Shown: one piece after another, positions 44,713-57,136 of the stretch | How the letters are laid out: every line of letters starts with the position of its first letter | Position numbering within the stretch: position 1 is the first letter of the stretch | DNA from: Arthrobacter sp. QXT-31 | Lineage (GTDB): Bacteria; Actinomycetota; Actinomycetes; Actinomycetales; Micrococcaceae | NCBI RefSeq assembly: GCF_001969265.1 | Contig: NZ_CP019304.1 | Span: forward strand, 558,001-622,000 | Direction of reading: 5' to 3' | Length of the DNA stretch: 64,000 nt | Translations under genes and position numbers: made by a program | Notes under the pieces: model-generated | The model's input: only the letters and a program-made list of their open reading frames with translations | Databases searched by the model: none | What the model was told of the DNA's origin: nothing

Positions 44713-44846
44713 CAGCCGCATCAACCCAGTCCAGCATCTGTCTACTGGCCCTGCACCCGGTCATCGATCGAGACCCACGGGCCGGCTTCAATCAGCGAAG
44801 CTTCCCGGGGATCACTACCGAGGACCGCGAATGCGTGATGCGGTTG
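44713..44846 (-). ncRNA. Structured leader RNA of pnp, probable Actino-pnp motif
   Basis: The two ends pair over 11 bp with one G-U: CAACCGCATCA (44836-44846, minus strand) and TGATGCGGCTG (44713-44723). Inside lie further pairings: GGCCC with GGGCC enclosing CCGTGGGT...ACCGGG, CCAGT with ACTGG, and GAAGC/GCTTC-type pairs. A closed multi-branch RNA just before pnp in an actinobacterium fits the described Actino-pnp motif, thought to control exoribonuclease expression. I cannot run a covariance search, so the family name is provisional; the long-range stem is plain in the sequence. Confidence 0.6.
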
Positions 44847-53276: not shown

Positions 53277-54876
53277 TCATTCCCGGTGGGGGCGTGATCT
53301 GAAGTATTGGTTGCGGCGGGGTTTACGCCCCCGGTCGAGTTCTGGTGGTGGTTTGAACCAGGGGACTTCGTTGGTGACTTCGATGGTCCAGTTTTCCTTA
53401 TGGATCAGGTGGTGGTGATAGCTGCAGAGGAGGACGCCGTTTGCGGTGCTGGTGGGTCCGCCGCGTGACCAGTAGGTGATGTGGTGGGCTTCGCACCAGG
53501 GTGCGGGCATGGTGCATTGCGGGAACGCGCAGCCTTGGTCGCGGGCCATGATGGCTTTGCGGATGTGGGGCGGGAAGATCCGTGAGGCGCGGCCGACGTC
53601 GAGGATGCGGCCGCCGGTGCCGAGGACGACGGGGATGAGGTCGGCGTCGCAGGCGATTTTGCGGATCGTGGCCGGGTTCACCGGCCCGCTGAACGCGAAC
53701 AGGGCTGTGCCGTCGCCGGTTCGGGCGGCGTTGAGCGGACCGGCGGAGGCTGGCTGCAGATCCTGATCGCCTTGGGCCCACTGTGTGTCCAGCGCTCCTT
53801 GGAGACTGGCGGTGCTGGGCTGGCCCAGCCATTGCTCGACTCTGGCGAGCAGGTCGCGGTAGTCGATGGTGACCAGGATCTGCGGGCGGTGCCGCCGTTG
53901 GCGGGCAGGGCGTCGGTGGTGAGGGCGGTTTGGCAGGCGCCGACGAGCCCGTCGAGGCGTTTCTGCCCCTGCGACCGGTGATCCAGGTCGATTTCCGGTA
54001 CACCCGGGCTGTCCCACCGGGCAAGGACAGCATCAGCATCCGCCGCCCCGCTGGTCCCGCCGCCGCCGCGCCGTCCCGCCGCCGGCGCCGTGGCTGCCAT
54101 TCCCGCCATCGCCGTCGCTGCCATTCCCGTCTGCGTGTTCCGGGGCCGGGGTGCGGGGGTTGGTGGCGGTGTTCATGGCGGTGGTGAGGGTTTCGAACTG
54201 TTCGGGGGTGGCGAAGATTTCCAGGTGGTGCAGGCCGTGTTTGGGGCGGCGGATGAAGGCGCCCTGGATCTGGCGGAGCGCGGGTTCGGAGGGTTCGGGG
54301 CCGTCCTGGTCGATCGCCTCGGCCCAGTGCCGGGCGACGCGCGTGACGAAGTCGGCGTCATTGTCGATCGCCGTTTGAGTGAGTTCGTGTTCCATCGCGG
54401 CGGTGCGGGCGGGGGTGGTGAAGTGCCGGGCCCGGTCCAGGGCGAGGGTGATCGTGGTCGCGGCACGGGAGCTGACCTGGGCGGTGCTGACCGCCGTCGC
54501 GAGTTCCCCGTAGCGGGGCGGTAGCTGTTGGCCGCCGAATCCTGCCCTGGGAAGGATGGAGTCGGCCAGGGTGAGGCGGCGGCGGGCCTCGCAGGCGCTG
54601 ATGCCCAGCCTGGTCCGAAGGAAATCCACGGTATTCCGGGAACCATCAGCATTGGGGTCCGCATCCGGGACGGGAACGGCGTCGGGGACCAGGGGTGCCG
54701 CGGCGGCGGTGAGGGCCGCGGTGCGGGACCTCTCCACGGCACCGGCGGCGACTACCTGCAGATGCTCCACCCTCCGGGAGAGCCGCTCCACCGCCGTCAT
54801 CCCCCGAGACAGAACCCAACCCACCGGCACCGGGCCCTAAGGCCCGGTTCCCGGTGAATCCCCCCATGGCTTCCAT
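53277..54876 (-). pseudogene. DUF222/HNH endonuclease (13E12-type), broken by frameshifts
   Basis: The protein is spread over three frames. Frame 1 (54830 to about 54060) starts at MTAVERLSRRVEHLQ (ATG 54800) and carries the DUF222 helical domain. The middle part (about 54060-53890, ADADAVLARWDSPGVPEIDLDHRS...) is in another frame. The last part (about 53890-53277) returns to frame 1 and has the HNH nuclease: CAFPQCTMPAPWCEAHHITYWSRG then HHHLIH. One extra base lies in a CGGCGGCGG tract and one base is missing near 53885, so the two shifts cancel. The repeat upstream also holds an ATG (54876, MEAMGGFTG) in a third frame that may be the ancestral start. The gene could be dead or could reflect sequencing errors. 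Confidence 0.8.
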
Positions 54877-54904
54877 AGACCGAGTCTGGACTGGGGGTCT
54901 GACA
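54791..54904 (-). repeat. Long repeat, copy 1, at the 5' end of the HNH gene
   Basis: About 114 bp shared with 54978-55090 and 56838-56946, all in the same orientation. On the minus strand it reads GTCAGACCCCC, a variable stretch, GGTCTATGGAAGCCAT, then GGGGGATTCACCGGG. This copy runs into the coding part of the HNH gene, so the repeat looks like that family's leader and first codons. Confidence 0.85.
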
Positions 54905-54977
54905 TTTTTCGCCGCGTCATCCGGCGTCCAGCCCTCGGAAGCACTACCGTCGGGAGCCGCTCCGGTGAGCCAGCCGC

Positions 54978-55090
54978 CGCCGTCGATCCCTGCCACGGAG
55001 CCTGACCCACCGGCACCGGGCCCGACGGCCCGGTTCCCGGTGAATCCCCCAATGGCTTCCATAGACCTATTCTGCTCAGGGGGTCTGACA
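54978..55090 (-). repeat. Long repeat, copy 2, orphan
   Basis: Second copy, ~113 bp. It encodes MEAIGGFTGNRAVGPGAGG in its own frame but no HNH gene follows; about 70 bp downstream copy 1 begins. It marks the left side of the IS110 segment. Confidence 0.85.
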
Positions 55091-55099
55091 GTAATGATG

Positions 55100-55336
55100 A
55101 AATTGGCTTGTGCTGCCGGTGTGGCTCTGGTTCTGACTGACGCCCCCCGCGAAGGGTTTGTCTTGAAAATGATTTGTCCGGCCGTCGGCACAGGCTGCAG
55201 TAAACGCGGCGGCCAGGTGGACATGACCTCATAGGAGCCTGCTCGAAGAATCCCATTACTGTCTTGTCTGCCCACCCGGCCGGCGTGCCCCTTTGTGTCC
55301 CCACCGCACGCAACGGAAGGCAGGGCTAGCTTCATC
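55100..55336 (+). ncRNA. Non-coding left end of the IS110-type element, candidate bridge RNA region
   Basis: IS110-group elements carry a guide (bridge) RNA in the non-coding end upstream of the transposase. The 236 nt here have no ORF and contain possible hairpins (GGCCG/CGGCC near 55183-55217). The segment GACCTCATAGGAGCC to CCCATTACTGTCTTG looks like the left ends of other actinobacterial IS110 elements by recall. The exact RNA limits and loops cannot be given. Confidence 0.35.
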
Positions 55337-56620
55337 ATGGCAAACCAACATCTGAAAGTCATCGCCGGGATCGACACTCACGCCGACACCCACCACGTCG
55401 CAATCATCGACGAGACCGGCAGACACATTACGGACAAAGAGTTTCTCGCTGTGGGTTCGGGCTACCGGAGCATTGCGGCCTTCATCATCGGGTTCGGCCA
55501 GGTCATTGCCGCCGGGGTGGAAGGCACCGGCAGCTACGGTGCCGAACTCGCCCGTGTCCTGACCGGGGAAGGCATCCGGGTTCTGGAAGTCATGCGCCCG
55601 AACCGGCAGGGACGCCGGCTCAGGGGCAAATCCGATCCCCTGGACGCGTACCAGGCGGCCGAGGCTGCGCTGGCCGGCCGGAACGTTGCAACACCAAAAT
55701 CCAGGGATGGCGCGGGTGGAATCCCTGCGGGTCCTGCGCGCCGAGCGGGCAACGGCCATGCGCGCCCGGGTAGCGGTCATGACCCAGATCAAAAGCATCC
55801 TCACGGCAGCACCCGAGACGCTCCGGGCCAAATACCGGCACCTGACCCGCGCCGCCATGATGGCCGCCCTGGAGAAAACCCGCCCCGCAGGGGACATGAC
55901 AAAACCCGTGAACGCCACCGCGGCCGTGCTCAAACGCCTCGCCATCCGTTACCGCGCCTTGGATCAGGAAGTGGCCCGTGATCGACGCCGAGCTCGACGC
56001 GATCATCAGAATTCATGCCCCGATGCTCCGCGACGTCAGGGGCGTAGGAACGGACGTCGCCAGCCAACTGCTGGTTACCGTCGGCGATAACCCCGAACGG
56101 ATCACCTCTGAAGCCAAATTCGCTGCCCTCGCGGGTGTCGCGCCGATACCGGCTTCCTCAGGAAGAACGACGCGGCACCGGCTCAGCCGCGGTGGTGACA
56201 GGCAGGCCAACAAAGCCATCCACCACGTCGCCCTGGTCCGGATGAGAACCGACGCCCGTACCAGGAACTACGTGGCTAAGCGCCAGGCCGAAGGCAAAAG
56301 CACCACCGAGATCATCCGGTGTCTCAAACGCTACATCGCCCGCGAAATCTACGACCAAATCATCCATCCGCATCCGGCACCGGACGCCGGGTCACTTCGC
56401 GTACTGCGCAAGACCAAGAACATCACCCTCCAAGCCGCAGCGGACAGCCTGCACGTCTGGCCCACCTCGCTCTCCCGCCTCGAACGCGGAATTACGCGCA
56501 ACGACGAGTTCTACCAACGGTACGAAGACTGGCTCAACTCGCCGTCCGCAGAAACCGCAAAAACACCTTCTGTGTTGCGGATCCGGCCGGCTGGCGCCTA
56601 GAAGGGGCACGGACCAACGG
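55130..56620 (+). mobile_element. Decayed IS110-family insertion sequence (limits approximate)
   Basis: Contains the broken transposase at 55337-56601 and a probable non-coding left end. IS110 elements lack terminal inverted repeats and target duplications, so the ends cannot be set from one copy. It lies between orphan repeat copies 2 and 3. Confidence 0.75.
55337..56601 (+). pseudogene. IS110-family transposase with two frameshifts
   Basis: Three frames carry one protein. Part 1 (55337 to about 55705): DEDD RuvC-like domain, GIDTHADTHHVAIIDE, VEGTGSYG, KSDPLDAYQAAEAAL. Part 2 (about 55706-55975): helical linker, ARVESLRVLRAERATAMRARV. Part 3 (about 55976-56601): Tnp20 serine domain (ALAGVAPIPASSGRTTRHRLSRGG) and an extra C-terminal HTH-like segment (LQAAADSLHVWPTSLSRLERG). 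The shifts near 55705 and 55975 both move the frame by +1, so they do not cancel. The element should no longer move by itself. Confidence 0.88.
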
Positions 56621-56626
56621 TGACCG

Positions 56627-56773
56627 GGCTCGGCGCCCCGCGACCCCTGCAGTAATGACCGGGGACGCTCTGGGGTCAAGGGCGGCCGGAGGCCGTCGCG
56701 CAGCGATCGATAGACCCTTGACGCCACTAGGCAGTTCCCCGGTCACCCCTGTCACGACGCGGGGCGCCGAACC
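56627..56773. repeat. ~147-nt nested inverted repeat
   Basis: Four nested arms pair around one centre: 56631-56642 with 56758-56769 (12/12), 56656-56665 with 56736-56745 (10/10), 56671-56682 with 56715-56726 (11/12), and CGGCC 56683-56687 with GGCCG 56691-56695. The whole can fold into a long rod or cruciform. It begins 25 nt after the end of the transposase frame. No ORF. Possibly a MITE-like palindrome or a structured RNA; see findings. Confidence 0.8.
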
Positions 56774-56837
56774 GTTGACACCAATAGGAGCATCATTATT
56801 AGTCCCCGCATTGGTGACGTCCCCGCCCAGCCGGCCA

Positions 56838-56946
56838 CCGCCGTCGTTCCCGGAGATGGAAGCCAGCCCACCGGCACCGGGCGGCCCGGTTCCCGGTGAA
56901 TCCCCCGATGGCTTCCATAGACCAAGTGTGAGCCGGGGGTCTGACG
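56838..56946 (-). repeat. Long repeat, copy 3, orphan
   Basis: Third copy, ~109 bp, same orientation as copies 1 and 2, 1.75 kb from copy 2. It lacks a few bases in the middle (after CGGGCC). No HNH gene follows on the minus strand; instead the palindrome and the IS110 remnant lie there. Confidence 0.85.
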
Positions 56947-57136
56947 TTAATGGTCTGACATTCTTCCCCGCCGGCGCCGATGGCTCCCATAAGTCCTTGG
57001 TAAGAGCACTTGGAGAGCATCGGCCCATCGACAGGCTCCGAAGGCGGGCCTAGAATACGCGCGTCGGGGGACCCGATTTTCGGACCACATATCGGTCTCA
57101 ATGTTCTGGATGCGCACCATCGACATTGGAGACGGT

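Follow-up and report, generated by a model that had tools for sequence, protein, structure and literature searches.

A nested palindrome inside an IS110-family element of Arthrobacter sp. QXT-31 is probably a passenger from a widespread family of branched palindromes

The window analysed in this study, a stretch of 64,000 nucleotides from Arthrobacter sp. QXT-31 (contig NZ_CP019304.1), contains an IS110-family insertion sequence with a long nested palindrome in its right end. The following features were assigned, with all positions referring to the window:

55091-56795, plus strand: IS110-family insertion sequence, 1705 bp; its two genomic copies diverge near the ends, which are shared by multi-copy relatives
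55099-55336, plus strand: left non-coding end, candidate bridge RNA with guides; relatives with a short right end share this left end
55129-55137, plus strand: left target guide GGTTCTGAC, 8 of 9 bases matching the left target GGGTCTGAC (55081-55089)
55231-55238, plus strand: left donor guide ATAGGAGC, identical to the IS right terminus at 56784-56791 (direct reading)
55254-55263, plus strand: right donor guide CATTACTGTC, complement of GACAGTAATG at 55087-55096 (direct reading)
55337-56601, plus strand: IS110 transposase gene (PF01548, E 6.1e-14; PF02371, E 6e-20)
56615-56777, no strand assigned: nested palindrome, a rod with a branched tip, probably a passenger unit in the right end of the IS110 element
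56674-56722, plus strand: conserved core with the closing stem GGTCAAGGG (56674-56682)/CCCTTGAC (56715-56722), from an alignment (A1) of 16 right ends and from the wider family
56684-56694, plus strand: hairpin 1, GGCC-GGA-GGCC, with a GNA triloop
56696-56706, plus strand: hairpin 2, TCGC-GCA-GCGA, with a GNA triloop
56775-56795, plus strand: IS right terminus TTGACA-CCAATAGGAGCATCA, conserved in relatives with and without the palindrome

The host element carries both the DEDD and the Transposase_20 domain (PF01548, PF02371) that define the IS110 group, and the core dinucleotide CA is common to both of its ends (55089-55090 and 56794-56795). Copies and relatives give approximate borders, and the end position to the exact base was set by reading. 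The initial annotation had described the palindrome as lying next to an IS110 remnant; it is located inside the element. The whole neighbourhood, palindrome included, has a second copy of 99% identity on the opposite strand at 1240610-1242358. At locus L022 of another genome, a related uninterrupted site reads GACATTATTAG, and the window has the IS between GACA and TTATTAG there. Comparison with the intact relative at locus L108 (three tblastn pieces) revealed frameshifts in the transposase gene at about 55714 and 55975, and the IS copy in the window is therefore probably inactive. The TTGACA of the right terminus could represent the -35 box of a putative circle-junction promoter.

The window contains three copies of a repeat (GGTGAATCCCCC.ATGGCTTCCATAGACC...GGGGGTCTGAC; 54821-54915, 55005-55090 and 56868-56950) beside DUF222/HNH frames, and the IS110 element is inserted at one copy of this repeat, which we assume to be linked to 13E12-type HNH genes. 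The repeat is found again at 4.68 Mb, adjoining similar sequence (L005), and the uninterrupted target-site relative L022 (G002:C17) adjoins it as well, with a run of N directly before. On the minus strand, the DUF222 (PF02720) and HNH (PF13391) domains are encoded at 53277-54830 in two frames, perhaps one broken gene. The earlier proposal that the HNH nuclease recognises the palindrome found no support, as the HNH gene is part of the separate DUF222/HNH repeat beside the IS insertion. Elsewhere in the window, an Actino-pnp RNA motif (RF01688) is located on the minus strand at 44756-44829.

The palindrome itself was recovered by an arm search of the window sequence, which returned outer arms of 16 nt with 94% pairing (56627-56642/56758-56773), fully paired arms of 10 nt (56656-56665/56736-56745), inner arms of 12 nt with 92% pairing (56671-56682/56715-56726) and fully paired outermost arms of 7 nt (56615-56621/56771-56777). 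The arm centres all lie between 56696 and 56701, and an alternative pairing of 56619-56628 with 56738-56747 (10 nt, 100%) is centred elsewhere. The nesting noted initially was thus confirmed, with a span nearer to 163 than to 147 nt and with slightly varying centres in place of a single one. Its symmetry is indeed far above chance: folded as RNA, the region 56600-56830 reached -118.8 kcal/mol on the plus strand (z -4.82) and -133.3 kcal/mol on the minus strand (z -5.88), and none of 200 shuffled sequences did equally well on either strand. For the plus strand of the core, the same branched shape is predicted under DNA and RNA parameters. A search of the whole IS against Rfam yielded no match at gathering score and just weak sub-threshold matches at E values up to 10. 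A further inverted pair, CACCAAT/ATTGGTG, had also been listed; it exists, but it is not part of the palindrome structure, because CACCAAT lies in the IS right terminus and ATTGGTG is host flank past the IS end (56795), and at the second genomic copy of the IS the first half is present and the second absent.

Across the genus, the second half of the transposase matched in 143 of 206 genomes, distant IS110 elements included, and the core model R1 matched in 22 of 206 genomes at 29 places. The IS terminus AGGAGCATC follows downstream at 26 of these 29; at L094 the transposase is present and the terminus altered, and L112 and L117 lie just past the transposase gene of a different IS110-family element, in a stretch also found on the Arthrobacter plasmid pHiyo8-1. 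Within the genome of strain QXT-31 (G000), R1 found the core at two places, both inside copies of the window IS110, and there is consequently no sign of the palindrome moving alone in this genome. Six relatives (L045-L048, L051, L055), 77-82% identical to the window IS over the second half of the transposase, have no palindrome and measure 34 nt from TGGCTC to the IS end, compared with 203-270 nt in full-length palindrome bearers. Palindrome-free relatives reach three copies per genome in G087, G225 and G083, so recognition of the palindrome by the transposase, as considered initially, is seemingly not needed. At the sequence level, the palindrome lies inside the IS, is additional to the parts of the IS and is absent from close relatives. 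In favour of an insertion, a minority of elements have the 9-bp direct repeat TGGCTCAAC on either side of the extra segment: among 25 palindrome-bearing or remnant right ends, its right copy is exact in 5 and has at most one mismatch in 8, and both copies are exact in 4 (L020, L049 and two remnants, L079 and L024). Within the clade of the window IS (L008, L016, L043, L044, L101), the right copy is unrecognisable, with 3-5 mismatches of 9, and in L093 the direct repeat reads 14 bp with one mismatch, which is long for a target duplication. No terminal inverted repeats were seen at the borders of the extra segment in the window. In L050 (G192:C46), a tandem duplication of 99 bp affects the 3' half of the right end of the IS110 and takes in part of the palindrome.

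The transposase tree (34 rows, of which 16 were labelled as palindrome-bearing and 18 as lacking it) requires three changes of the palindrome label; one bearing label (L060) is wrong, and 9 of the 18 rows labelled as lacking it are without a motif-detectable right end. Losses can be seen in L056, which lies inside the palindrome clade and has none, and in L024 and L079, which keep partial palindromes. A single ancestral gain followed by such losses is likely and the simplest reading, not proof, in view of the mislabelled row, the missing right ends and the three label changes. A MAFFT/RNAalifold model of 16 IS right ends contained no pair altered on both sides; there is little variation of the core within the IS, and the alignment of the outer arms appeared faulty in this model.

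Beyond the genus, a pattern scan detected the core, made up of the closing stem TCAAGGG/CCCTTGA and GNA-triloop hairpins, in at least 120 genome stretches. Among the matches listed, 51 of the 80 titled stretches belong to Streptomyces, most others are from Actinobacteria, and a few are from Caulobacter, Rhizobium and other Gram-negative bacteria. The set of 134 core matches comprises 133 among the pattern-scan matches listed and one viral contig; 126 of the 134 parse as closing stem plus hairpins and eight fail. Three of the unparsed sequences (L151, L161, L255) resemble chance matches in coding DNA. In a sample of 396 genomes from across the phylum, the core model R1 had matches in only 2, its own and a weak one, which is below the expectation from the pattern scan; this low yield may be due to the tuning of the model to IS110 and to strict filters. 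A reversed control pattern gave no match in any of 8 genomes.

As the search pattern preset the letters TCAAG, GGCC and TCGC/GCGA, only free positions count when pairing is assessed. Among the matches listed, the Y-R pair, which was free in the pattern, covaries in all 126 copies (T-A 108, C-G 18). Outer-arm positions 3 to 6 pair in 112, 102, 109 and 100 of the 116 distinct copies listed, compared with 54-60 in shuffles, a comparison which overstates independence since many copies come from related Streptomyces; positions 1 and 2 pair at chance in the same copies (69 and 43 of 116 versus 71 and 40 after shuffling). The covariation comes from the wider family, with none within the IS alone. The palindrome is thus neither a single occurrence nor devoid of compensatory changes, two of the grounds on which the initial annotation would have given it up. 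GNA triloops are present in hairpin 1 of 98/126 and hairpin 2 of 111/126 of the matches listed, and because they are confined to one strand, the palindrome has polarity. Regarding the neighbourhood of the core, a single tRNA gene was found within 1 kb across 146 loci (ARAGORN), and no common neighbour gene emerged, the biggest neighbour family comprising 6 loci.

Signs of mobility were found in Candidatus Mycobacterium methanotrophicum (G984), which harbours ten pattern matches to the core. Nine of these are 282-bp MITEs with sharp ends and 8-bp duplications in 9/9 cases; a script identified eight of them, and L287, the ninth, which follows a 9-base duplication of its own start, was read by eye. 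The tenth (L282) is a variant without MITE ends. Other elements of this genome share the MITE terminal sequence, and four of the eight examined, three of 1388-1389 bp and one of 1037 bp, have 8-bp duplications of their own. One such element, L293, encodes an ISL3 transposase (PF01610, E 2.7e-50). Based on the shared termini, the 8-bp duplications and the ISL3 gene of L293, the core-bearing MITE was very probably moved by an ISL3-type transposase. A reverse-transcriptase-like frame was read in the locus of L292 (G984:C1:285284), an element of 1037 bp with ISL3-type ends and an 8-bp duplication.

Relaxed searches located the core in plasmids of Streptosporangium, Prauserella, Pseudonocardia, Micromonospora, Nocardia, Mycobacterium branderi and Acidiphilium (13 records in one search and 11 in another, 10 of them inspected); in one of the searches, matches outside the genus at E above 1e-5 are weak and possibly due to chance. 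In two genomes, the core stands just 5' of TrwC-type relaxase genes; there are four such places, and Pfam confirmed two of them. On pACRY01 (L142), it lies 124 nt before an ISL3 transposase gene, and terminal repeats enclosing it were not found there.

A different arrangement was observed in S. lavendulae, S. toxytricini and Streptomyces sp. NBC_00249, which carry 23-36 core copies per genome and contain 10, 10 and 11 adjacent pairs within 4 kb, respectively. By eye, all 31 pairs were counted as minus-then-plus and none in the opposite order. In S. lavendulae, the inverted arms of the 10 pairs measure 160-476 bp, with 74-99% identity within the compared stretches, and a unit of about 1.1 kb is common to four pairs (L266, L269, L271, L272) at 90-96% identity. 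In NBC_00249, 9 of the 10 fetched pairs contain a called reading frame; Pfam was applied to 10 of the 15 frames and identified HAD-like, NUDIX, GNAT, NmrA-like, GntR/UTRA (two), DDE transposase and GDSL lipase-like proteins. The pairs at L265-L274 and L321-L330 enclose varied accessory genes or common filler, with a single polarity. Inside L273, L321, L327 and L328, a small protein (YEYVPHRLLRRRVRDI..., about 84-91 aa) is found repeatedly, and the one copy tested had no Pfam match.

By sequence comparison, then, unrelated mobile elements share this core, with compensatory changes among its copies. We consider it probable that the palindrome of the window is a foldback, MITE-like passenger of a widespread family that was captured by IS110 and has been copied along since. 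A palindrome unit would have entered the 3' end of the IS110 transposase gene in an ancestor within the genus, and most likely it has since been copied together with IS110, travelling along without serving it. The extra segment would accordingly have been gained by insertion rather than lost in relatives, foreign transposases would move such units in trans, and selection would keep the folded single strand.

The suggestion of the initial annotation that the palindrome is a MITE or an independent palindromic element comes close to this, given that the core is also present in MITEs, inverted pairs and plasmids and that some relatives of the IS lack the palindrome. MITEs and foldback elements are non-autonomous and are moved in trans by a DDE transposase. 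The G984 unit resembles them in its length of 282 bp, its ISL3-shared termini and its 8-bp target duplications; around the copy in the window, no terminal repeats were recognised. Unlike in typical MITEs, the conserved part is an internal branched palindrome, which is common to elements with differing ends, to IS right ends and to plasmids.

The strand reading TCAAGGG...CCCTTGA is predicted to form a rod tipped by C-GNA-G triloop hairpins. C-GNA-G triloops are very stable in single-stranded DNA, and GNA triloops are known from Streptomyces telomeres; attC sites, oriT/sso hairpins and the telomere palindromes of parvoviruses or Streptomyces all function as folded single strands. As one strand is predicted to form a rod with these stable loops, our guess, held with somewhat less than even confidence, is that the unit works as single-stranded DNA or as a cruciform and that a protein belonging to conjugative or replicating mobile elements recognises it. 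The polarity of the palindrome and the type of its loops both suggest that one DNA strand folds on its own, and the location of the core next to relaxases hints at a connection with conjugation or single-strand replication. More doubtful is the proposal that the copies are strand-specific, phylum-crossing sites of single-strand folding, namely a cis-site of actinobacterial conjugative elements 5' of TrwC which was borrowed by MITEs, by IS elements and by the gene-capturing pairs of Streptomyces and which one protein would recognise as a common handle.

An unlikely explanation is that the palindrome terminates transcription behind the transposase gene or acts there as an insulator. It lies shortly after the transposase stop, the nearest gene end is a 3' end for 36 of the 50 other copies flanked by called genes (crude gene calling), and a part of the copies would, by reading, form UNCG-type RNA loops on the other strand. 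However, no T run follows the palindrome, copies stand in either orientation relative to the nearest 3' end (27 antisense and 9 sense under the same crude gene calling, with the IS copy in sense), and four copies linked to TrwC are located 5' of the gene; a terminator leaves the loop type conserved on one strand unexplained.

Quite improbable, in our view, is that the element originally had the palindrome and that the short-ended relatives lost it through deletion between the 9-bp direct repeats, an event that palindromes favour. While the known losses, complete in L056 and partial in L024 and L079, agree with deletion, both outgroup rows whose right end could be read (L080, L085) have short ends, as do the basal rows of the group, and the core is found independently elsewhere.

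For a palindrome in the right end of an IS110-family element, a role as the guide RNA of the IS itself, in the manner of an IS1111-type seekRNA or bridge RNA, has to be weighed; we regard it as very unlikely. Two reports describe this RNA as residing mostly in the left end in IS110 and usually in the right end in IS1111, with exceptions that include a downstream location in some IS110-family members (PMC11187229; PMC11208160). The palindrome resembles these RNAs as a structured sequence at a non-coding end of a DEDD transposase element, and it folds strongly, while the left end alone folds no better than shuffles (z +0.32, 111/200 equally good). By sequence, however, the putative guides of this IS lie in its left end. 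Of 18 relatives compared, four were dropped for an unreadable left end and one had no left flank; in 10 of the remaining 13 elements, the left target has its best match at a single, common place of the left end, with 7/8 bases or more in 7 of the 10, the exceptions being L008 (the second copy in the QXT-31 genome), L046 and L054. Against shuffled left targets, this place reached p < 0.05 in 6 of 9 rows and the plus strand of the palindrome in none of the 9 (lowest p 0.07), two of the rows being both copies from the QXT-31 genome. For the right target, no clear guide emerged in the left end (mean of 5.8/8 for own matches versus 5.6 for targets of other elements). The core is nearly invariant among IS elements whose targets differ, relatives at three copies per genome manage without the palindrome, and the core also occurs in MITEs and in plasmid stretches without annotated IS110 (incomplete annotation). 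With a left-target match and two donor guides that fit, the left end is a candidate bridge RNA, and by its sequence the element is an IS110-group element with left-end guides; the initial idea of a right-end structured RNA, in this guide sense, is not supported.

Least likely of all, a REP sequence mobilised by a RAYT-type (Y1) transposase would share with the present family its dispersed imperfect palindromes, which lie mainly outside called genes and are numerous in the three high-copy Streptomyces, and Y1_Tnp was detected in 3/9 genomes searched, including the MITE-bearing G984, but the present palindromes are longer with a branched tip, Y1_Tnp was not found in any of the three high-copy Streptomyces or in the QXT-31 genome, and the G984 units end in ISL3-type sequence.

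Judging by titles and the openings of abstracts, we recognised no description of this palindrome family among the PMC papers searched, which does not show its absence from print. For the biology of IS110 elements, our results are a warning that a strongly folded right end is not necessarily a guide RNA. The inverted pairs of Streptomyces, some of them around accessory genes, look like a gene-capturing device. Finally, a folded core that remains near-invariant across differing ends, transposases and hosts suggests a shared recogniser.
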